A DNA stretch of 64,000 bases from Planctomycetaceae bacterium (GTDB taxonomy: Bacteria; Planctomycetota; Planctomycetia; Pirellulales; PALSA-1355), in contig PLYM01000216.1 of NCBI GenBank assembly GCA_003153375.1, positions 270 through 64,269 of the forward strand, given 5' to 3'. Shown one piece after another: positions 28,386 through 42,292 of this stretch (positions are counted from its first letter, which is position 1; the number at the start of each line of letters is the position of its first letter). The notes beneath the pieces are model-generated. The model was not told where the DNA came from, did no database searches, and saw only the letters and a list, made by a program, of their open reading frames with translations. Position numbers and translations under genes: made by a program.

Positions 28386-28688
28386 CGCGAAATGCCTGTC
28401 TGCCCGCGAGCACGGCGGAAAAAAGTGCTTTTAATGGAAAACGCACGAAGCGTGGCGAACTGCCCAGAATTGGGAGGCGGAGTGTCGCAAAAAGTCCGCC
28501 GCGCGTCCAGACCGTCCGCACGCACTCGCTAGCACGGCCTCAGCGGGGTGGAATGCCGTAAGTCTCGGGCTGTGGCGATATTCGCAGTCCCGGGGAATTT
28601 TTCTGCTAGCCGAATCCGCTGGCTGTTCCCTACAATTCAGGATTCGCACGTCACCGGAACGGACTCACCCACGCGAAACTCCCCGCCT
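28386..28688. other. 303-base divergent promoter region upstream of uvrA
   Basis: It separates the coupled small-secreted/LRR genes (minus) from uvrA (plus). I see no gene, no clear LexA-type palindrome, and no strong hairpin. The open frame that extends uvrA upstream to 28548 is in this region but looks non-coding. An A/T-rich patch (28420-28440) could hold a minus-strand promoter. Confidence 0.4.
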
Positions 28689-31600
28689 ATGGCTGCCGCC
28701 GATATCGTGATCAAGGGGGCCCGTGAGCATAACCTGCGGGACATCAACCTTTCGCTGCCGCGGAACCAACTGATCTGCCTCACCGGCGTCAGCGGCTCGG
28801 GCAAGAGCTCGCTGGCCTTCGATACCCTGTATGCCGAGGGGCAGCGGCGCTATGTCGAAAGCCTGTCGAGCTTCGCGCGCCAGTTCCTGGGGCAGATGCC
28901 CAAGCCCGACGTCGACTACATCAGCGGCCTGAGCCCGTCGATTTCGATTTCGCAAAAGTCGGCCGGCCAGAATCCCCGTTCGACCGTCGGCACGATCACC
29001 GAGATTTATGACTACCTGCGCGTGCTTTACGCCCGCACGGGCCAGGGACATTGCCCCAAATGCGCGCGGCCCATCACGGCCCAGACGCGCGAGCAGATCA
29101 TCCAACGCATCGGCCTACTGCCCGAGGGAACGCGGTTCGTGGTGCTGGCCCCGCTGATCCGGGCGCAAAAAGGCGAGTATCGCGATCTGTTCGTCGACCT
29201 GATGAAGCAGGGCTTCGCCCGGGCGCGCGTCGATGGTCGGATCGTGCAGCTCAACGACGAACTGCACCTTGACCGGCAGATGCGGCACAACATCGAAGTG
29301 GTCATCGACCGCCTCGTGGCCGGCGACGCGCGGGTCCGCCTGTCCGAGGCCGTCGAGCTGGCGCTCAAGATGGGGCAGGGCAGCCTGATCGTTTCGACGG
29401 AAGAAGCCGATGGCAAAACCGCGAAAAATGGCGACGCACCCGCGCCGCGCGGCCGCAAGCGCAAGAAGCCGGCCGCCGAGTCAGCGGATGTGCCGCCGGA
29501 CGAGCAGATCGTCCAGCAATCGGGCGACATGCAACTATCGGCCCACTATGCCTGCACGCACTGCGGCCTGAGCTTCGAGCCGCCGAGCCCACAACTGTTC
29601 AGCTTCAACAGTCCGCAAGGCATGTGCGCGGCCTGCGATGGCTTGGGCGAGCTTTATTCGTTCGAGCCCGCGCTGCTAGTGCCCAACGGCGAGCTGTCGT
29701 TCAAGCAGGGGTGCTTCGAATTGCTCGGCCCCTGGCGCGACCTGGGACGCTGGAAGCGGCACGTCTATCAGGGCGTGGCTGAAACCGTCGAGCGGCTGCA
29801 CAAACTGCCCAAGGGCACGATGCTCGACACGCCCTGGAATCAGCTCGACAAGGAATTGGCAGAGCTGTGGCTCTACGGCACCGGCGACGAGCACATCACG
29901 TTCACCTGGCGCGGCGGCACTTCGGGCCATAAGTATGGCGGCAAGTTCGAGGGCATCATCCCCAAGTTGCTCGACAAATACCGCAACTCGGGCAGCAAGA
30001 TGCAATTGCGGCAGTTGGAAAAATACATGCAGGTCATGCTCTGCGCCGAGTGCGCGGGGCAGCGACTGAATCCGCAAGCCCGCGCGGTGACGATCGCCAC
30101 GCGGGATGCGAAGTTTGCCGATCGCCCGGCACGCTCGCTGCCCGAGGTCTGCCATCTGCCCGTCAACGACGCCATCGATTTCTTCAGCGCGCTCGATCTC
30201 GATCCGACCCGGGCGTTGATCGCCACCGAAGTGCTCAAGGAGATCAGCGGCCGACTGGGTTTCTTGAGCAACGTGGGGCTCGACTACCTGACGCTCGATC
30301 GCACCGCGCCCACGCTCTCGGGCGGCGAATCGCAGCGCATTCGCCTGGCCGGACAAATCGGCTGCGGCCTGGTCGGCGTGCTCTATATTCTCGACGAGCC
30401 TTCGATCGGGCTGCACCCGCGCGACAACGACCGGCTGCTCGACACGCTGACGCAACTGCGCGACCTGGGCAACACGGTGGTCGTGGTCGAGCACGACGAA
30501 GACACGATGCGGGCGGCCGATCACATCGTCGACTTCGGCCCCGGCCCCGGCGTTCGCGGCGGCGAGGTCGTGGCCTCGGGCACCGCCGACACCATTGCCG
30601 AAGCGTCGCGGAGCCTGACCGGGCAGTACCTGTCGGGAAAGCTGAAAATCGAAGTCCCGGAAAAGCCGCGTCCGATCGGCGACCAGAAGCTGCGGATCGT
30701 CGGCGCCAACCACAATAACCTCAAGGGCATCGACGTCGAAATCCCCTTGGGCGCGCTGGTGTGCATCACGGGCGTATCGGGCTCGGGCAAAAGCTCGCTG
30801 ATCGGCGACATCCTGGTCGAAGCTTTGCGGCGCGATCTCAACGGCGGCGAAGGCTCGCCCGGCAAGCACGAGCGGATCGAAGGGCTCGAGCACCTCGACA
30901 AGCTGATCGCCATCGATCAGTCGCCGATCGGGCGCACGCCGCGCTCGAACCCTGGCACCTACATCAAGCTGTTCGACGAGATTCGCACGCTCTACACGCA
31001 ACTGCCCGAATCGAAAGCCCGCGGTTACAAGGCCGGGCGGTTCAGCTTCAACGTTTCGGGCGGGCGCTGCGAGGCCTGCGAGGGCAACGGCTCGAACAAG
31101 CTGGAGATGGACTTCCTGGCCGACGTCTGGGTGACCTGCCCGGTGTGCGAAGGGCACCGGTTCAATCGCGAGACATTGCAAGTGCGCTTCAAGGGCAAGA
31201 GCATCGCCGAAGTGCTCGAAATGGACGTGCAGCAGGCCCTGGCGCATTTCGAAAACATTCCCAAGGTGCGTCACAAGTTGCAAACCCTGCACGACGTGGG
31301 ACTCGACTATCTGAAGTTGGGGCAGCCCTCGCCCACTCTGTCGGGTGGCGAAGCCCAGCGCATCAAGCTGGCCCGCGAGCTGGTCAAGAAGAGCACTGGC
31401 AAGACCTTGTATCTGCTCGACGAGCCGACGACCGGTTTGCACTTTGCCGATATCCACCTGCTGCTCAAGGTGCTGCACGACTTTGTCGACGCCGGCAACA
31501 CGGTGTTGATCGTCGAACACAACCTGGACGTGGTGAAAACGGCCGACTGGGTGATCGACCTGGGACCCGAGGGAGGCCGTGGCGGCGGCGAGTTGGTGGC

Positions 31601-34600
31601 CGTGGGCACGCCCAGCGAAATCGCCAAGGTCGCCGCATCGCACACGGGACGCGCCCTGAAGGCCCATTTGGCTCAGATGAATTCCTCGTCGCGCGGCAAG
31701 AGCGCCCCGAACGGTCGGCCCAAGCGCGTCGCCGTGGAGGCCAAATCGATCAAAGTTCGCGGCGCGCGGCAACACAATCTCAAGGGAATCGACGTCGAGA
31801 TTCCCCGCGACCGCATGACGGTCTGTTGCGGCATGAGCGGAAGTGGCAAGAGCTCGCTGGCCATGGACACGGTCTACGCCGAAGGGCAGCGCCGCTATGT
31901 CGAAAGCCTGAGCGCCTACGCGCGGCAGTTCGTGGGCCAGATGCAAAAGCCGGCGGTCGATCACATCGATGGCCTTTCGCCGGCCATCGCCATCGAACAA
32001 AAGCACATGGGTCACACGCCCCGCTCGACCGTGGGCACGGTGACCGAAATCTACGACTACCTGCGCATCTTGATGGCGCGCATGGGCACGCCTTATTGCC
32101 CGGCCTGCGACATTCCGGTGGGCACGCAGACCGCCGACGAGATCGTCGACAAGATTCTGGCCGAGCCGGTCGACACGAAGCTGTATCTGATGGCTCCGTT
32201 GCAGGTCGAGGTCGGCGACAAGTACGAAAACCTGTGGGGCGAGATTCGCGCCATGGGCTATGTGCGGATGCGCGTCGACGGCCAGTCGTTCTCGGTCGAC
32301 GAGCCGCCGCAAATCGACCGCCGACGCAAGCATCTGGTCGAGGTGGTGATCGACCGCGTGAGCGTCAAGCCCGAGGGCCGCAGCCGCATCGCCGACACGG
32401 TCGAAAACGCCCTGGCCATGGGCAAAGGCCTGCTGCACGTGGCCTATCCCGAGCCGGACGTGCCCGAGGCCAAATGGCGCACCGAAATTCACAGCCAGCA
32501 TTTCGCCTGCGACCGCTGCGGCCGCAGCTTCGAACGGCTGACTCCGCACAGTTTTTCGTTCAACAGCTCGCTCGGTTGGTGCAAAGCCTGCGAGGGCCTG
32601 GGCACGCAAACCGGCGCCAATCCGTTGGCGCTGCTGCGCGATCCGAAGTTGACGCTGGCCGGCGGGGCCGTCGGGTTGTGGCCCACGGCCAGCTCGACGA
32701 TTTTCAATTGGATGCTCACGGCGCTGTCGGCGCACTCTCAGGTGCCGATCGACGTGCCCTTCGATCAATTGAATGCCAAGCAGCGACGCGTCGTGTTCCA
32801 TGGCACTGGCGACGACTGGATCGACGTGCACGCCGACGGTAAGCGCAAGAAGAACGAGCGCCCGCTGTTCCGCTTTCAATTCAAGGGACTCTATCCGGCG
32901 CTCGAAGAAGCCGCGCGGCTTTCGCCGGCCCTGCGGGCCAAATGGGAACACATGGTCGGCGAAGTCGAGTGCTCCACCTGTGGCGGCAGCCGACTGCGCG
33001 ACGACGCCGCGGCCATGCGATTGCACGAGCGCACGATCGACGACCTTTGCCGCCAGCCCTTGGGCGGCTTGCTCGAACGATTCAACGATTGGAAGCTCGA
33101 CCCGCGCGAGCGCAAGATCGCCGGCGAGCTGGTGCGCGAGGTGCGCAATCGTTTGCAGTTTCTGGTCGACGTGGGCTTGGAATATCTCACGCTCTCGCGA
33201 CCCGCGCCCACGCTCTCGGGCGGCGAAGCTCAGCGGATTCGCCTGGCCAGCCAGGTGGGCAGCGGCCTGTGCGGTGTGTTGTATGTGCTCGACGAACCGA
33301 CGATCGGCTTGCACCCGCGCGATAATCGCCGCTTGCTGGGCGCGCTCGAAAAGTTGCGCGACCTGGGCAACACGCTGCTGGTGGTCGAACACGATCGTGA
33401 CGTCGTGGCGGCGGCCGATCAACTGCTCGACTTCGGTCCCGCGGCGGGCGATGGCGGCGGACAGATCGTGGCCCGCGGCACGCCGGCCGAGGTTGGCAAG
33501 CAAAACGGCTCGGTCACCGGACCTTATCTTTCAGGCACGAAGGCCATTCCGATTCCGACGAATCGCCGCATGCCCAGTCTGATTGACTGGAAGGCAGGCC
33601 CCGCCGAGCCGCCCAAGCCGACGAAAAAGCGCGCGGCGAAAAAGTCGTCGCCGACCGCCGACGTTGCCAACGTCGCGCGCGAGCCGTTTCCTCCCGCGCC
33701 GGGTGGCTGGTTGGAAATCCTCGGCGCGCGGCACAACAACTTGCGCAACGTCACGGCCCGCATTCCGCTGGGCTGCTTCTCGGTGATCACGGGCGTCAGC
33801 GGCAGCGGCAAGAGCTCGCTGATCGAAGACGTGCTCTACAACTCGCTGGCTCGCACGCTGCACCGTGCCAGCACCACTCCGGGTCAGCACGACGCGATTC
33901 GTGGCGTCGATCAGATCAACAAAGTGATCCGCGTCGATCAACAGCCGCTGGGTCAGACGCCGACGTCGAACCCGGCCACGTATACCGGCGTATTCGATCT
34001 GATTCGCGCGCTCTATTCCCAACTGCCCGAGGCCCGCGTGCGAGGTTACACGCCGCGGCGTTTCAGTTTCAACGTGCCGGGCGGGCGTTGCGAGGCCTGC
34101 GAGGGCAATGGGCAAATCTGCATCGAGATGCACTTCCTGCCCGACGTGTGGGTCGAGTGCGACACGTGCCGCGGGCGGCGCTACAACCCCGAGACGCTGG
34201 CCGTGACCTATCACGGCCAATCGATCGCCGACGTGCTCGACATGCCGTGTGCAAAGGCGGTCAAGCTGTTCGAGAACATTCCCAAGATCAGCCGCATCTT
34301 GCAAACGCTGTGTGACGTGGGGCTCGATTACCTGACCCTGGGCCAGGCGGCGCCGACGCTCTCAGGCGGCGAAGCGCAGCGCGTCAAGCTGGCCGCCGAA
34401 CTGTCGCGCCCCGATACCGGACGCACGCTCTATCTGCTCGACGAACCCACTACGGGCTTGCACTTCGACGACATCGCCAAACTGCTGGAAGTGCTCAACC
34501 GGCTGGTTGACTTGGGCAACTCGGTGGTGGTGATCGAACACAATCTGGACGTCATCAAGACGGCCGACTGGGTGCTCGACATGGGCCCCGAGGCCGGCGA

Positions 34601-35825
34601 GGGGGGCGGATATCTGATTGCCGAGGGCACGCCCGAGGATATCGTGCGCCACGCGGCCCCGGCCGGCGCGCCCAAGCGCGCGGCGAAACGCTCGACAAGC
34701 AAGACACCCGCTGCGACTGGCGACGCACACCGCTCGCACACGGGCGAGGCGCTCGCGGTCACGCTGGCCGAAAGCCCGCGTGAGAAGCGGGCCTTGTATG
34801 ACTTCGCCGCGGAACAGGCCAAAATCGAAGAGGGCCTGGACATTGCCGAGGTCGGCAAGGACTCGCGCATGCCTTGGGAAGCCGACGGCCGGCGGTGGCA
34901 CACGGAGAATCGCGTGGGCCGTGCGGGGCAGCCGTGCCGTTGGGACGGTCGAATCTTGGAGAAAGTGGTCGATCGCATTGCCGACTCGGGCCAGTTCGGC
35001 GAAACGAATTGGAACGCCCGCACGGTCGTCGAGATCGCCTCGCCGACGCGCAGCGAGGGCTGGTTTTTCCATGCCATCACCGGCGAAGAATGGCTGTTGA
35101 AGCTGAAGTTTCGCGTGGCCAAGAACACCTTTCAGCGTGAGCGGCTCGTCGAGCAATTGAATCTCAAGCCGCTCAATGATCTGCCCGACTTGCCGGTCTA
35201 TGGCCACGAGCCGCGCGTGAAGTGCAAGAACCTGCGCGGTCCGTTTCAGGAAGTGCAACTGCAGGTTCACGCGCTGGACGAAATCGACACGCCGGCATTT
35301 TGGAAATTCATCGATGCCACGATCGCGGGCTTCGGCAAGTTCGCCGACAGGGCACGGCAGAACCCCGAGGACTTGATGCCCTGGAAAGTGCTCGGCCAGA
35401 AGTGGCACTTTGCCCGCAAGGGATTTCCGCCCGGCAAGCCGCCGCAGTGGGATCTCGACGTGCTGGAGGAGCTTTGCGAACGGCTGGTCGAGGCCGCGCC
35501 CCAGGGGCAGTTCTTGTGGAACAATCAACAGGTCGTACACATCTTCGTGGCCAACCAGCACGAGCCGTGGGCCACGGTCTACACCAAGCGAACGGCTGCG
35601 GTCGACCTGGTCCTGACCGGCCCCAAGGGGCGTTTTGGCCTAGGACGCGTGACCGAGTTGGGCGCGGAGCGCGAATTTCAGACCGGCCCGCAGCGCGACG
35701 TGCTGCGGCTGCGCTTCACCAGCACGTTGGACTTGGACCGGGGAGATCTGCGCGAGTTTCTGACCGAGCATCTGGCCGGATTGGACGCGAAGAACGCGGG
35801 CATCGCGCGGGTCGGATCGTCATGA
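28689..35825 (+). CDS. uvrA: Giant double UvrA (excinuclease ABC subunit A) with extra C-terminal domain
   Basis: About 2378 residues against roughly 950 for ordinary UvrA. It is two complete UvrA copies in one chain. Four Walker A motifs (GVSGSGKSS near 33, 692, 1700; [10 protein letters not shown] near 1045) and four ABC signatures (LSGGExQRI/V near 543, 883, 1508, 1891), each followed by a D-E-P Walker B. Both copies keep the UvrB-binding region and zinc fingers (CTHC...CAAC, CEAC...CPVC, CDRC...CKAC, CEAC...CDTC). A charged linker with [10 protein letters not shown] sits in copy 1. After about residue 2020 comes an extension of ~350 residues not found in canonical UvrA, with two repeats (see findings). 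UvrA scans DNA for lesions and loads UvrB. ATG at 28689 gives the conserved N-terminus; no strong ribosome site is visible. Confidence 0.93.
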
Positions 35826-35861: not shown

Positions 35862-36515
35862 ATGGCTGAGCAGTTGTTGCCAACCCGGTTTTTGTTTCGC
35901 TTTGCCGCGGCCTGCCGCTACGCTGCCACGCTGGGCGCGGCGCCGCCCAGTGAATTCAGCGCGGAGTATCGACTGCCATCGCTGGGCGAACTGGAAGGCC
36001 AGCGGGCGTTTGCCGACGTGCGCGCGGCCTGGAGCGAAGCGGGGCTGGGCTTCAGCGTGCGCATCGAGGGTAAACGGCATCCCAGTTGGTGCCGCGAGAC
36101 GAAGCTCGAAGACAGCGACTCACTGCAAGTCTGGATCGATACGCGCGACACGCACAACATCCACCGCGCCAGCCGCTTCTGCCACCGCTTCATCTTCCTT
36201 CCGTCGGGCGGAGGGCGAACCTATGAGCAACCGATCGCCGATCAACTGCTGGTCGACCGCTCGCGCGAAAACGCCAACCCGGTGCGGCCCGGTCATTTGA
36301 AAGTCACCAGCGAGAAACGCGTGGGGGGCTATGTGATGTCGGCCTTCATCCCGGCCGCCGCTCTGACCGGCTTCAACCCGGTCGACCATCCGAAGCTGGG
36401 GTTTACCTATTTCATCTTCGACCGCGAGCTTGGCCAGCAATTCTTCAGCGTCGGCAGCGAGTTTCCGTTCCCCTCCGACCCCAGCCTGTGGGGCACGTTG
36501 GAGCTGGGCCGCTAA
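35862..36515 (+). CDS. CBM9/DOMON-like carbohydrate-binding-type protein
   Basis: 217 residues from an ATG with a good ribosome site (GAGAGGGAG at 35845-35853). It resembles family-9-like carbohydrate-binding or DOMON-type beta-sandwiches found in planctomycetes: GFSVRIEGKRHPSW, DSDSLQVWIDTRDTHNIHRASRFCHRF, and GYVMSAFIPAAALTGFNP. No signal peptide, so it is probably cytoplasmic, unusual for a sugar-binding module. It begins 36 bases after uvrA and may be co-transcribed. Its stop overlaps the stop of the convergent lipoyl-domain gene by two bases. Function unknown. Confidence 0.7.
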   Translation: MAEQLLPTRFLFRFAAACRYAATLGAAPPSEFSAEYRLPSLGELEGQRAFADVRAAWSEAGLGFSVRIEGKRHPSWCRETKLEDSDSLQVWIDTRDTHNIHRASRFCHRFIFLPSGGGRTYEQPIADQLLVDRSRENANPVRPGHLKVTSEKRVGGYVMSAFIPAAALTGFNPVDHPKLGFTYFIFDRELGQQFFSVGSEFPFPSDPSLWGTLELGR

Positions 36516-36838
36516 ATCTCGCCAGGCTCCTCATCCTCCGGCGCCAGCACGACTGCCAACACCTGGCCGACTGTCAGTTCGTCATCTTCCTGCACCAGGA
36601 TCTCAATCAACGTGCCGCTGGCCGGCGCGGGCAAATCGACCGTGACGCTGCCGGCCACGACTTCCAAAAGACGGTCGCCCGCGGTGACTTCCTCACCTTG
36701 CTCGACGTGCCAGGCGCTGGCCACGACGGAGACGTCGGCCAGGCCGAGATCAGGAAGCACGAGCTCGTGATGAGTTGCCGGCACGATTTGGCTCGACTGC
36801 GTGGCGTGGGTTCCCGGCAACAACTTCACCGCCAACAA
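36512..36838 (-). CDS. Stand-alone lipoyl-like domain without the lipoylated Lys
   Basis: 108 residues, of which about 25-100 are a biotin/lipoyl-type beta-barrel: VLPDLGLADVSVVASAWHVEQGEEV, then GDRLLEVVAGSVTVDLPAPASGTL, then EDDELTVGQVLAVV. In a normal domain the hairpin reads ETDKATVE with the modified Lys in the middle; here Glu59-Val-Val-Ala-Gly-Ser64 puts Ser64 at the Lys position. So it cannot carry lipoate in the usual way. It is the third gene of the lipB-lipA operon (36 bases after lipA), which points to a lipoate-related role, for example as a docking partner. The N-terminal 22 residues may be extra. Confidence 0.7.
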   Translation of the reverse strand: MLAVKLLPGTHATQSSQIVPATHHELVLPDLGLADVSVVASAWHVEQGEEVTAGDRLLEVVAGSVTVDLPAPASGTLIEILVQEDDELTVGQVLAVVLAPEDEEPGEI

Positions 36839-36874: not shown

Positions 36875-37780
36875 TCAAACCGCCTCGGCCATTTCGCGGG
36901 CGTGATAGCTCGAACGCACGAACGGTCCGCTGGCAACCTGCGAAAAACCCATCTGGCGGGCGGCGCGGCCCAGGGCCTCGAACTCTTCGGGCGGCAGATA
37001 GCGCACCACCGGCAAATGCTCGGGCGTGGGCCGCAAATACTGTCCAAGGGTGAGAAAATCGCAGCCCACGGAAATCAGATCGGCCAGCGTGTCGAGCAGT
37101 TCCTCGTGCGTCTCGCCCAGGCCGAGCATCAGCCCGCTCTTGGTCTTGATGGCCGGATTCAATTGCTTGACGCGGGCCAGCAACTCGAGCGTCCAGCGAT
37201 AGACGCTCTTGCGACCACGCACCTGCCGGTATAGCCGGGGAACAGTCTCGGTGTTGTGGTTGAACACCTCAGGCGCGGCCTCGACGACGCGCTCCACGGC
37301 GCCCGGCTTGCCGATGAAATCGGGAGTCAGCACTTCAACCGCTGCGCCGATTCTTCGACGCACGGCCAGCACTGATTGATAGAAGTGCTCTGCGCCACCG
37401 TCGGGTAAGTCATCGCGCGTGACGGAGGTGATCACGACGTGCTTCAGGCCCAAGCGGGCGGCGGCTTCGGCCATGCGATCGGGCTCGTCGATCTCCAGCG
37501 CCTCGGTCTTGCCCTTGTGTACCGAGCAAAAGCCGCACGGCCGCGTGCAGGTGTTGCCCATGATCATGAAGGTGGCCGTGCGTTGGCTCCAGCACTCCAT
37601 GCGGTTAGGGCACTTGGCGCTTTCGCAAACGGTTTCGAGCCCCAGCTCTTCGATCAACCGGGCCGTAAAGTGGTTTTCATTCCCCTTGGGAATGTTCTTT
37701 TTCAACCACCGCGGCAGGCGTTCGTCGGCCGGAGTGAGCGAAATGATCGGCAGTTCAAGGGGCACGCCCGACGGATTCAT
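36875..37780 (-). CDS. lipA: Lipoyl synthase LipA
   Basis: 301 residues with both 4Fe-4S clusters of LipA: the auxiliary cluster CESAKCPNRMECW and the radical-SAM cluster CTRPCGFC (C-x3-C-x2-C), then EPDRMAEAAARLGLKHVVITSVTRDDLPDGGAEHF. Also GLGETHEELLDTLADL and the C-terminal FVRSSYHA. It inserts two sulfur atoms into octanoyl-lysine of carrier domains. It overlaps the lipB coding sequence by 26 bases, so the two are translationally linked. The gene appears intact, whereas its two partners in the operon are missing key residues. Confidence 0.95.
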   Translation of the reverse strand: MNPSGVPLELPIISLTPADERLPRWLKKNIPKGNENHFTARLIEELGLETVCESAKCPNRMECWSQRTATFMIMGNTCTRPCGFCSVHKGKTEALEIDEPDRMAEAAARLGLKHVVITSVTRDDLPDGGAEHFYQSVLAVRRRIGAAVEVLTPDFIGKPGAVERVVEAAPEVFNHNTETVPRLYRQVRGRKSVYRWTLELLARVKQLNPAIKTKSGLMLGLGETHEELLDTLADLISVGCDFLTLGQYLRPTPEHLPVVRYLPPEEFEALGRAARQMGFSQVASGPFVRSSYHAREMAEAV

Positions 37781-38498
37781 GCGACGATCTCGAAAGCTGG
37801 GCCAACAGTGGGTGGCCCGTATACAAATGATAGCGCTGGCAGCCCAAAGCGTCGACCAGGTGGTTGATTATTGTAGCACGCACCGTGGTCATCTTGACAG
37901 GCTTCTGCCGCTCGGCCGCCAGCGAGCTAGCCGGCGAATGGCCGATCGGATCGGACTCGATCGAGCGAAACGATCGCATCGCCGGATCGACATTGATATA
38001 GGCCCCGAAGTAGGTCGTCCAACTTCTGACCGCGACACCCACGGTCGCCAGCTGCCCGGTACGACCCCAAATGCCGTGCGTTCCGGTGCGGGTCTGGCCC
38101 GCGATGCCCAAACTGTCCAACGTAGCCAGCAGGCCGCGCTGGAACCTATTGAGATACTCGCCGACTGAAAAACCATGCCACTCGAGCGGCACGATCGGAT
38201 AGACGGCCAACTGGCCCGGCGCGTGCAGCAGGCAGCCGCCGCCGCGATTGACCCAGCGCACTTCCAACTGCCGGCTTTCCAATTCGCGCGGCGACATCCG
38301 CACGTGCGAGCGCGAGCCCAACCGCCCCATCGTGATTACCGGCGGATGCTCGGCCAGCAGCAATGCGATCTGGCCGTCTGCCCGCCCGCCCGCTTCGAAC
38401 ACCAGTCGCCGCTGCAACGCCAGGCAAACGTCGAAATCGATCGGACCCAGGAAGTAGGTCTCGACCGCGGGATCGGCGCTAGGACGTTGGTTGGCCAT
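37755..38498 (-). CDS. LipB-like octanoyltransferase lacking catalytic Lys and Cys
   Basis: 247 residues related to LipB (octanoyl-ACP:protein transferase): FLGPIDFDVCLALQRR, EHPPVITMGR, VNRGGGCLLHAPGQLAVYPI and WTTYFGAYINVDPAMRSF align with LipB regions. The catalytic Lys (GKIA in LipB) is Gln149 (GQLA), and the catalytic Cys (PCG motif) is gone: the region reads IESDPIGHSPASSL. A Cys (Cys89) occurs in the RGGGC loop at a position not known to be catalytic. So it is either inactive, a different acyl- or lipoyl-binding protein, or uses another mechanism. ATG at 38498. First gene of a lipB-lipA-lipoyl operon. Confidence 0.8.
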   Translation of the reverse strand: MANQRPSADPAVETYFLGPIDFDVCLALQRRLVFEAGGRADGQIALLLAEHPPVITMGRLGSRSHVRMSPRELESRQLEVRWVNRGGGCLLHAPGQLAVYPIVPLEWHGFSVGEYLNRFQRGLLATLDSLGIAGQTRTGTHGIWGRTGQLATVGVAVRSWTTYFGAYINVDPAMRSFRSIESDPIGHSPASSLAAERQKPVKMTTVRATIINHLVDALGCQRYHLYTGHPLLAQLSRSSHESVGRAP

Positions 38499-39297: not shown

Positions 39298-39690
39298 ATG
39301 AGCGACCGACAGCGCGTTACTTCGGGCGTCCCCTGGGAAGCGGTCGTGGGCTATTGCCGCGCCGTGCGGGTTGGCAATCGGGTCTGCGTCTCGGGCACGA
39401 CCGCCACGGGTGACGATGGCTAGGTCGTTGGTCCTGGCGATGCCTATCGGCAATCCGTGCAAGCGATCCGAAATATCGAGCAGGCGCTGGCCCAACTCGG
39501 CGCCAAATTGTCGGACGTGGTTCGCACGCGGATGTTCGTCACCGACATCAGCCGCTGGCAGGAATATGGCCGGGCTCATGGGGAGTTCTTTCGCGAGCAT
39601 CCACCGACCACGTCGATGGTCGAGGTCGCGCGGCTGATCGATCCGGCCATGCTGATCGAGATCGAAGCCGACGCCGAGATTTCTTCGTAG
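39298..39690 (+). pseudogene. RidA/YjgF-family gene interrupted by an in-frame TAG
   Basis: From ATG 39298 the frame reads [23 protein letters not shown], then [16 protein letters not shown], then TAG at codon 42 (39421-39423), then continues in the same frame with VVGPGDAYRQSVQAIRNIEQALAQLG, TRMFVTDISRWQEYGRAHGEFF and MVEVARLIDP to 39690. This is one continuous RidA homologue; other members have Lys/Arg/Gly at the interrupted codon. The gene is otherwise undamaged, so a recent nonsense mutation, a sequence error, or read-through are all possible. An ATG at 39457 is not family-like as a start. Confidence 0.75.
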
Positions 39691-39893: not shown

Positions 39894-40565
39894 ATGTTGC
39901 TGCTCAAGGGTGTCAGCAAGACGTTTCGCGAGCCCGATGGCTCGGCACTGCCGATTCTGGACGTCAAGCAGTTCGGCCTGGCGGCCGGCGAGCAGGTGGT
40001 GTTGATGGGACGCAGCGGCAGCGGCAAAACCACGCTGCTGCACGTGATCGCCGGCATCAGCCGCCCCGACGCCGGGGTGGTGCGAATCGACGGCTGCGAC
40101 ATCACACGACTGAGCGAGGCCGGCCGCGACCGGTTTCGCGCCGAGAAGATCGGCTACGTCTTTCAGACCTTCAACCTGCTGTCCGGCTTTTCGGCGTTGG
40201 AAAACGTGCTGCTGGGCATGTCATTCGCCAGCGGCCGGCCCGATGCCGCGCGGGCCCGCCGTCTGCTCGACCGCGTGGGACTCTCGCGGCGTTTGACGCA
40301 TCGACCGGCCATGCTCTCGGTGGGCGAACAGCAGCGCGTGGCCGTGGCCCGGGCTTTGGCGAATCGTCCCAAGCTGCTGCTGGCCGATGAGCCCACGGCC
40401 AACGTCGACGCCGGGCATCAACAGCAGATCATCGACTTGGTGCGCGAAACGTGCCGCGAGGAGGACGTGGCCTTGCTGCTCGTGACGCACACGCCCGAGG
40501 TGGCCGAACAATTCACACGCGTCGATCGGCTCGAAGACTTCAATCAACCCCTGAGCGTCGCATGA
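39894..40565 (+). CDS. ABC transporter ATPase (LolD/MacB-type)
   Basis: 223 residues: Walker A GRSGSGKTT, Q-loop VFQTFNLLSGFSALENV, signature LSVGEQQRVAVARAL (LSVGE in place of LSGGQ), Walker B LLLADEPTANVD, H-loop THTPEVAEQ. The family pairs with FtsX-type permeases. The stop overlaps the permease ATG by four bases (ATGA at 40562-40565), so the pair is translationally coupled. Usual partners are lipoprotein or macrolide export systems, or the metal-linked Zrg/PA4064-type system; the downstream genes favour the last. Confidence 0.92.
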   Translation: MLLLKGVSKTFREPDGSALPILDVKQFGLAAGEQVVLMGRSGSGKTTLLHVIAGISRPDAGVVRIDGCDITRLSEAGRDRFRAEKIGYVFQTFNLLSGFSALENVLLGMSFASGRPDAARARRLLDRVGLSRRLTHRPAMLSVGEQQRVAVARALANRPKLLLADEPTANVDAGHQQQIIDLVRETCREEDVALLLVTHTPEVAEQFTRVDRLEDFNQPLSVA

Positions 40566-42292
40566 GCCGTTGGACGATTGCCTGGCGCAGCATTCAGCAG
40601 CGGGGACTTGCCTCGACCCTGACGGGTCTGTCGATGGCGCTGGGCGTGATGCTGGTCGTGGCCGTACTCGTGGTGCACGGCGTGATCGACCGTTCGTTCC
40701 TCAACAACTCAGGCCTGGGCTACAACATCGTGGTTGGCGCCAAAGGCGGCCGTCTCGACCTAGTGCTCAACACGGTCTACTACCTGAGCCGGCCCGTCGA
40801 GAACATTCCCTACACTTACTACCTCGAACTCACGCAGGGCAAGTACAAGGATTACGTGGAGAAGGCTATTCCCGTCTGCCTGGGGGACATCTACCAGGAT
40901 TTTCGGGTCATCGGCACCACGTCGGACTTTTTTGACGAGTTGGACTACGGCGGCCGGGCCTATGAATTCGCGGTCGGCCGAAATTTCAAGGACGACGAAT
41001 ATTATTGCGCCGTGATCGGCGCCACCGTCGCGCGCGAGACCGGGCTGGAAGTGGGCGATGAATTTCAGCCGGCTCACGGCGCCTCCGACGGCCACGTACA
41101 CGACCCCTTCAAGATCGTGGGCGTTCTCAAACCCACCGGCACGCCCAACGATCGTGGGTTGTTCATCAACATGGAGGGTTTCTTCCTCATTCCCGAGCAC
41201 GCCAAGCCGGTGGATGACGAACCCGGCGATAAGGCGGCCGCCGAACACAAGCACGAGCACGGCGAAGACGACCACGGGCATGCCGAGGATTCGGACCACA
41301 AGCACGACGCGCACGGCGATGACGATCATGCTCATGAGAAAGAACAGCCGGCCGGCAAGAAGGCTGCCGGGCCCGCCGACCGTCACGAGGAGACCGACGG
41401 CGACGTGCGCGAGAAAGATCGCGATCCCGACGCCATGCCCGTCGAGGAGCATGACGCCGACGACAAAGATCACGATCACGGCGACCACGATCACGACAAG
41501 CACGAGCACACGGATCACGACCACGCCGACATGCCGGCCGCCGAGGGCGAGCACGAGCACGAAGAGCATGACCACGCGGGACACGAACACGACGCGCACG
41601 AGCATGGCCATGGCGAACACGAACACGCGGGCCACGATCATCACGAAGATCACCACCATGGCCACACGCACGGACCTCTGCCGATCGAACAGCGCGAAGT
41701 GACGGCGGTGCTGGTGCTAACCTCGAGCGTGCCGACAGGCTTCATGGACGATCAGGGGCGCCCGCTGCGCACGCCACCCGAGGCGATGGCGCCGGCCCTG
41801 ATCAAGATGATCAACAAGGATTCGGTCGCTCAGGCCGTGCAGCCGATTCGCGAGATGAACGTCCTGTTCAGCACCTTCGTTAATCCCATGCAGGGAGTGC
41901 TGCTGTGCCTGACGGTGATGATCGTGATCGTCTCGGGCATTGGCATTCTGGTCAGCATTTACAACTCGATGAACGAGCGGCAGCACGAGATTGCCGTGAT
42001 GCGGGCCTTGGGTGCCGGCCGGCGCACGGTGATGCTGCTGGTTCTGCTGGAATCGATTTTGCTGAGTCTCGCCGGCGGTTTGGCGGGCTGGCTTGTGGGC
42101 CATGTGTTGATCGCCGCCCTAAGTCCTTGGATCGCCATGCAAACCGGCGTTTCGATTGGCTTCCTGCAGTTTGTTGGCTATGAGTTGGTTATAATACCAG
42201 GGTTGATCGCTTTGGCCTCGCTCGTGGGTTATCTGCCCGCCATGGCCGCGTATCGCACGGATGTGGCCAAAGCGCTCAGCGCTACGCCCTAG
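40562..42292 (+). CDS. FtsX-type ABC permease with His-rich insertion
   Basis: 576 residues. An N-terminal TM helix (LSMALGVMLVVAVLVVHGVI) is followed by an extracytoplasmic MacB-PCD-like domain (about 45-440), then three TM helices (about 445-565) with NEIAVMRALGAGRRTVMLLVLLE-like FtsX sequence (QHEIAVMRALGAGRRTV). The extracytoplasmic domain holds an insert at about residues 228-372 made largely of His, Asp and Glu, with about 40 His. Such segments bind Zn, Cu, Ni or Co. I infer that the permease carries its own metal-binding domain, replacing a separate His-rich protein. Coupled to the ATPase gene; followed by a GC hairpin and the CPFC gene. Confidence 0.88.
   Translation: MSRWTIAWRSIQQRGLASTLTGLSMALGVMLVVAVLVVHGVIDRSFLNNSGLGYNIVVGAKGGRLDLVLNTVYYLSRPVENIPYTYYLELTQGKYKDYVEKAIPVCLGDIYQDFRVIGTTSDFFDELDYGGRAYEFAVGRNFKDDEYYCAVIGATVARETGLEVGDEFQPAHGASDGHVHDPFKIVGVLKPTGTPNDRGLFINMEGFFLIPEHAKPVDDEPGDKAAAEHKHEHGEDDHGHAEDSDHKHDAHGDDDHAHEKEQPAGKKAAGPADRHEETDGDVREKDRDPDAMPVEEHDADDKDHDHGDHDHDKHEHTDHDHADMPAAEGEHEHEEHDHAGHEHDAHEHGHGEHEHAGHDHHEDHHHGHTHGPLPIEQREVTAVLVLTSSVPTGFMDDQGRPLRTPPEAMAPALIKMINKDSVAQAVQPIREMNVLFSTFVNPMQGVLLCLTVMIVIVSGIGILVSIYNSMNERQHEIAVMRALGAGRRTVMLLVLLESILLSLAGGLAGWLVGHVLIAALSPWIAMQTGVSIGFLQFVGYELVIIPGLIALASLVGYLPAMAAYRTDVAKALSATP
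41240..41685 (+). repeat. Low-complexity His/Asp/Glu codon tract within the permease gene
   Basis: The DNA consists mostly of CAC/CAT, GAC/GAT and GAG/GAA codons in imperfect repeats such as CACGAGCAC and GACCACGAC. The tract lies inside the permease coding sequence and stays in frame throughout. It could expand or contract by slippage. Apparent open frames on the opposite strand and other frames here (for example 40760-41671 minus) are products of this composition. Confidence 0.8.

Follow-up and report, generated by a model that had tools for sequence, protein, structure and literature searches.

Members of the class Planctomycetia have lost both the acceptor lysine of a small lipoyl domain protein and the catalytic Cys/Lys dyad of a LipB-like protein, and the two losses go together from genome to genome. 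The window, which is the whole stretch of 64,000 nucleotides that was analysed, encodes both proteins: the lipoyl-like gene follows directly after lipA and a lipB-like gene, all in the same orientation. The explanation that we favour, with somewhat better than even confidence, is that they are an old acceptor-enzyme pair whose chemistry was lost while both partners were retained, at best guess as a non-catalytic complex that would regulate or scaffold lipoate assembly. The preliminary description of the locus had noticed the lipoyl-like protein and its position after lipA, which was borne out. It missed the dead LipB next door, the coupling of the two losses, and the distant orthologues that keep the lysine.

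A lipoyl domain with serine at the lipoylation site

The ORF at 36512-36838 (minus strand) encodes a free-standing lipoyl-like domain protein of 108 amino acids, counted from a TTG codon; the frame holds no in-frame ATG. It matches the Pfam family Biotin_lipoyl (PF00364) with 51.7 bits against a cut-off of 22.1 (E = 8e-14). The AlphaFold model, with a pLDDT of 94.4, finds its best PDB matches among E2 lipoyl, biotinyl and biotin carrier domains. In this model the strands E35-41 and E44-49 form a hairpin with A-G-S at its turn, and the serine (Ser43 in the model, Ser64 in the ORF; codon 36647-36649, minus strand) occupies the tip. Alignment of the family profile to solved E2 lipoyl domains is gapless through the hairpin and sets the tip residue opposite the lipoylated lysine. 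The barrel-sandwich fold of a lipoyl carrier is therefore present without the acceptor lysine at its tip, and the preliminary description was right both in placing Ser64 at the modified position and in considering the fold intact. It is thus confirmed that this ORF is a lipoyl domain with serine at the lipoylation site.

Two other identities were considered and rejected. The gene is not a split E2 or an E3-binding protein, as no E1 or E2 gene lies beside it and Lys-bearing E2-type lipoyl domains are encoded elsewhere in the genome. Nor does the protein belong to the GcvH/LbpA family, since its scores are too low (12.8 bits for GCV_H, below the cut-off of 22.2) and the modified lysine is absent.

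A comparison of 112 unique lipoyl-type sequences from the loci yielded 83 without a tip lysine, 80 of them from Planctomycetia and three from family f93. The tip residue varies among these 83 (Gly in 30, Glu in 18, Ser in 15, Pro in 10, Ala in 7, and Asp in 3). Orthologues sharing the same serine, which the preliminary description had proposed to look for, are thus the minority, and no chemistry can be assigned to a residue that is not a conserved replacement. A lysine moved elsewhere in the hairpin, which the same description had named as an outcome against its reading, can also be dismissed, as none of the 83 has a lysine within three residues of the tip. The relatives instead share an arginine just before the hairpin (GDR), present in 92% of the K-less and 0% of the K-bearing proteins; in the window, column comparison places this derived residue in GDRLLE (R35 in the model; codon 36671-36673, minus strand).

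The lysine is missing from all orthologues of the class, whereas distant orthologues from other classes keep it, the very observation that had been expected to overturn the reading of the protein as something other than a substrate. What survives of that reading is its core: an intact fold that, from its residues, could not be lipoylated, and a loss common to the class, make a non-substrate role likely, although not one tied to serine. A scan of named genomes with a narrower alignment returned 15 loci, including MAGs labelled Pirellulales, Planctomycetaceae, Pirellula sp., Singulisphaera sp. and Candidatus Anammoximicrobium.

Several further features of this part of the window were noted. A conserved gene of 217 amino acids (35862-36515, plus strand), whose stop overlaps that of the lipoyl-like gene by 4 bases, has a weak match to CBM9_1 (20.4 bits, below the cut-off) and homologues in loci L039, L043 and L057. 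It separates the lipoyl-like gene from an ORF of 2425 amino acids (28548-35825, plus strand) in which two UvrA-like copies follow one another in a single frame. In L039 and L057, comparable ORFs of 2346-2362 amino acids occur close to the lipoyl-like or lipB locus, each with the same small gene as a neighbour. Farther along, a RidA-type frame (39371-39690, plus strand) is apparently broken by an in-frame TAG near 39421 (ggctaggtcg), and an FtsX-like permease ORF (40451-42292, plus strand), adjoining an ABC ATPase, carries a long His/Asp/Glu-rich insert that looks metal-binding.

The neighbouring LipB-like protein lacks the catalytic dyad

The LipB-like ORF (37755-38498, minus strand) starts at an ATG at 38498, is open upstream to 38675, and overlaps the start of lipA by 26 bases. 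Its product scores 95.2 bits with LplA-B_cat and 83.6 with TIGR00214, which is just at the cut-off of 83.55. The predicted structure (pLDDT 93.8) has the LipB fold, with the LipB 2qhs as the best match (TM 0.78/0.92). LipB is an acyltransferase that depends on a Cys/Lys dyad, formed by Cys169 and Lys135 in E. coli and by Cys176 and Lys142 in M. tuberculosis (PMC9307952). Alignments to 2qht and 1w66 and among 98 LipB sequences show a Gln codon at the position of Lys142 (38052-38054, minus strand) and an Asp codon at that of Cys176 (37950-37952, minus strand). The window protein thus possesses the fold and the family score of LipB without the dyad, and is, judging from its sequence, catalytically dead.

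The 98 sequences comprised 71 LipB-like proteins of Planctomycetia and 27 others from outgroup genomes, three class genomes and references. The catalytic cysteine is absent from all 71 and the lysine from 70, while both are kept in 27 of the 27 others. The 71 form one clade (support 0.82), inside which the orders, named here from the family handles by inference, separate. Genuine LipB has 30 conserved columns; 16 of them, among which are both histidines, RGG and PGQ, persist in 80% or more of the pseudo-LipBs, and the catalytic lysine and cysteine belong to the five columns that fall below 10%. Residues that have become newly conserved are GRxGS, W141, R266 and the C-terminal HP within HxxTGHP.

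It could be argued that the LipB-like protein continues to transfer octanoyl groups without the dyad, with the Lys-less lipoyl domain as its accessory subunit. The intact fold, the retention of most pocket residues and of both active-site histidines in nearly all members, and the conserved lipB-lipA order would all suit such an enzyme. However, no consistent substitute has taken the place of either the lysine (Q, R, L, P, M, H and others) or the cysteine (D, P, N, G, T, S and others), the examined genomes also carry LipM/LplA-type proteins, and about half of the order does without the LipB-like protein, yet has LipA in nearly all its genomes. We therefore regard continued activity as improbable. 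For Planctomycetia, annotation as LipB probably assigns the wrong function, and pathway counts that rely on LipB to indicate octanoyl transfer may be inaccurate in this class.

As a separate observation, three loci (L162, L277 and L291, from G112, G373 and G337) appear to hold a genuine LipB fused in frame with LipA, which suggests that these two enzymes can be physically coupled.

Origin in a working lipoate cluster

In other classes of the phylum, the free-standing lipoyl protein carries a normal lysine (TDKA, TEKT), and several of these genomes encode it in a cluster lpd-lipB-lipA-lipoyl-holB-psp1, the identities of holB, psp1 and lpd having been assigned by visual inspection of the sequences. 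In outgroup genomes with the K-bearing protein, every LipB that was readable in full has both lysine and cysteine. The K-less genes keep parts of this cluster: the window and many class genomes have lipB-lipA-lipoyl, G410 has lipA-lipoyl-holB, and family f13 has neighbours of the psp1/Minf_1886 type. The lysine-keeping distant orthologues show that the ancestor of the lipoyl-like protein was a real carrier. Synteny and the LipB tree together show a working lpd-lipB-lipA-lipoyl-holB cluster as the origin of both genes.

The loss of the acceptor lysine has an independent parallel in family f93, three genomes of which encode a K-less lipoyl protein next to lipA and give no LipB match; in L112 and L113 this second Lys-less protein (AADENT/TVGENT) stands beside lpd, lipA and holB. 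Another variant occurs in L109-L111 (family f62) and L068-L084, where the K-bearing free-standing lipoyl protein has a long acidic C-terminal tail with runs of Glu and Asp; the genomes tested contain a single LplA/LipB-type protein.

The two genes are kept or lost together

The lipoyl-like orthologue is present in 29 of 58 order-level genomes and also in other families of the class. All 29 carry the dead LipB as well, and no genome has the K-less protein only; in two the dead LipB stands alone (G006, and G030, where it is a fragment) and 27 are without it (Fisher p = 1.5e-14, with genomes treated as independent and no correction for kinship). One of these 27, G012, encodes LipB and no K-less protein, but it is not an exception, as its LipB is genuine, with both residues present. 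Genuine LipB occurs in three class genomes (G012, G373 and G390), none of which has the K-less protein. Even within single families (f1, f10, f15, f16 and f17) there are genomes with both genes and genomes with neither.

Class-wide, most genomes with a dead LipB also carry the K-less protein, by counts that combine profile scores and local checks. A LipB-like protein without a detectable partner was found in six of 80 class genomes tested (G270, G336, G371, G392, G396 and G446), so that with G006 and G030 the lipoyl-like gene went undetected in at least eight pseudo-LipB genomes; G395 (92% complete) has the K-less protein without LipB. These absence calls hinge on thresholds and completeness, with one genome profiled per species and MAGs forming part of the set.

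About half of the 29 order-level pairs are not neighbours, lying on other contigs or far apart (for example in G004, G013, G015, G017, G018, G029, G033, G035, G044, G051 and G053), and therefore linkage does not explain the co-occurrence. Furthermore, distances between lipoyl-like proteins correlate with those between LipB-like proteins beyond what LipA distances account for (partial Mantel r = 0.28, p = 0.001, 49 genomes), a mirror-tree signal that is modest and comes from a short domain.

Patchy presence in Pirellulales and the loss of both catalytic sites might be taken to mean that these genes are decaying relics without function. However, the lipoyl-like gene has dN/dS values of 0.03-0.38 in 17 close pairs, and is therefore under purifying selection; together with frames that are intact across the class, this leads us to reject a pseudogene. 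The folds are predicted with high confidence, and co-retention is near-perfect even where the genes are unlinked. The relic explanation is thus largely refuted, and we consider it very unlikely. The module is nevertheless dispensable, since about half of the order lacks both genes.

The position of the lipoyl-like gene relative to lipA differs from that of its partner. The preliminary description had given weight to this adjacency, which is not a general trait: the gene lies elsewhere in roughly half of the 29 order-level genomes that have it, and its tie to LipA is therefore weaker than its tie to LipB. The LipB-like gene stays beside lipA across the class, often overlapping it. This mixed picture bears on the main alternative to a role in lipoate assembly, namely that the two proteins no longer serve lipoate biology at all and instead form a complex with a different target, the adjacency to lipA being a legacy of the old cluster. 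The relocation of so many lipoyl-like genes, their arrival near unrelated genes such as those of the psp1/Minf_1886 type or apolipoprotein N-acyltransferase (names assigned by eye), and the new GRxGS and C-terminal HxxTGHP motifs, suggestive of a new role, all favour such a departure. The constancy of the LipB-like gene beside lipA, the retention of its ligand-pocket residues and the failure to find any other constant neighbour argue the other way, and we judge this alternative possible but rather unlikely.

Lipoate assembly probably without LipB

The lipA gene of the window (36875-37780, minus strand) encodes an intact lipoyl synthase (TIGR00510, 357.8 bits) with both Cys motifs and the RSSY motif, and the auxiliary CX4CX5C motif, the radical SAM CX3CX2C motif and the RSS motif are present in 49 of 49 paired genomes. 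It is the only LipA above the cut-off in the genome, which rules out the idea that another copy leaves this one available for a different task. The source genome also encodes E2 domains with lysine, its own GcvH with lysine, and two further LplA/LipM-type proteins, one of which is encoded within about 3 kb of gcvH and retains, by eye, a LipM-like Cys and Lys. With this complement, LipB is seemingly not needed for lipoate assembly here. For octanoyl transfer to E2 and GcvH, the most likely agent is a separate enzyme of the LipM type, after which the intact LipA would act.

A published survey reported that LipB and LipM are rarely found together, without mention of Planctomycetes (PMC10332631). 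LipM alone, however, does not account for LipB decay, as family f51 has a match in the LipM range alongside an intact LipB; LipM may permit the loss of LipB, but it does not force it.

A possible role for the retained pair

The chemistry of both proteins was lost in the ancestor of Planctomycetia, and the retained genes have since been kept or lost nearly together; the pair most likely works as a non-catalytic complex. The dead LipB probably still binds octanoyl-ACP, given its conserved pocket residues; this is plausible because the E. coli LipB K135A/C169A variant, which lacks the same two residues, provides a direct precedent by binding octanoyl-ACP with a KD of about 36 uM (PMC9307952). The two proteins may also have kept the binding that exists between LipB and its acceptor. 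The Lys-less domain would then probably dock on the dead LipB, on LipA, or on both, as a substrate mimic that is never turned over, and might serve lipoate assembly as a scaffold, decoy or sensor. Such a role is favoured because, to any enzyme recognising lipoyl domains, an unmodifiable one naturally presents a mimic that cannot be consumed, and its simplest target would be LipA, whose gene stays beside the dead lipB.

We infer from these considerations that the pair may regulate lipoate assembly. A more specific version, offered only tentatively, is a class-wide regulatory module in which the dyad-less LipB senses octanoyl-ACP and holds or releases the Lys-less mimic on LipA or the transferases, thereby setting the rate of lipoate assembly.

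Comparison with known systems

That dead enzymes can be retained by evolution is well known. We know of no described case, however, of a joint loss of this kind, with the catalytic residues gone from an enzyme, the acceptor residue gone from its own protein substrate, and the two nevertheless maintained as a pair throughout a bacterial class; literature searches for such a jointly dead enzyme-acceptor pair found none. The pair is a clean system for asking what an enzyme and its acceptor do once the chemistry is gone, with natural controls in the outgroup clusters with both parts intact, in f93 (acceptor dead, no transferase), and in close relatives with neither gene.

The lipoyl-like protein shares with the E2 lipoyl domains of 2-oxoacid dehydrogenases (PF00364) the barrel-sandwich fold and the hairpin, to which it aligns without gaps and which supply its best PDB matches. 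Unlike these, the class members have no acceptor lysine, possess the derived arginine (GDR) before the hairpin, and consist of a single free-standing domain without a catalytic or subunit-binding domain. GcvH and LbpA, the lipoate-binding protein of the sHdr sulfur-oxidation system, are lipoylated on lysine. The lipoyl-like protein resembles these carriers in being a small single-domain protein in genomes with lipoate assembly genes, but it lacks the lysine and scores below the GCV_H cut-off. As in the barrel-sandwich domains of HlyD/RND adaptors, NqrA and RnfC, a lipoyl-like fold occurs without modification; yet those are parts of transporters and pumps whose families score below cut-off here, whereas the lipoyl-like protein descends, by synteny, from a Lys-bearing free carrier.

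The LipB-like protein shares with LipB octanoyltransferases (TIGR00214; 2qhs, 1w66) the fold and the His, RGG and HxPGQ pocket residues, and differs from them in the absence of the dyad and in the added conserved GRxGS and C-terminal HP. A further counterpart is the E. coli K135A/C169A variant (PMC9307952), in which the same two residues are missing; while that protein is a laboratory construct, the Planctomycetia proteins have replaced those residues across a whole class.
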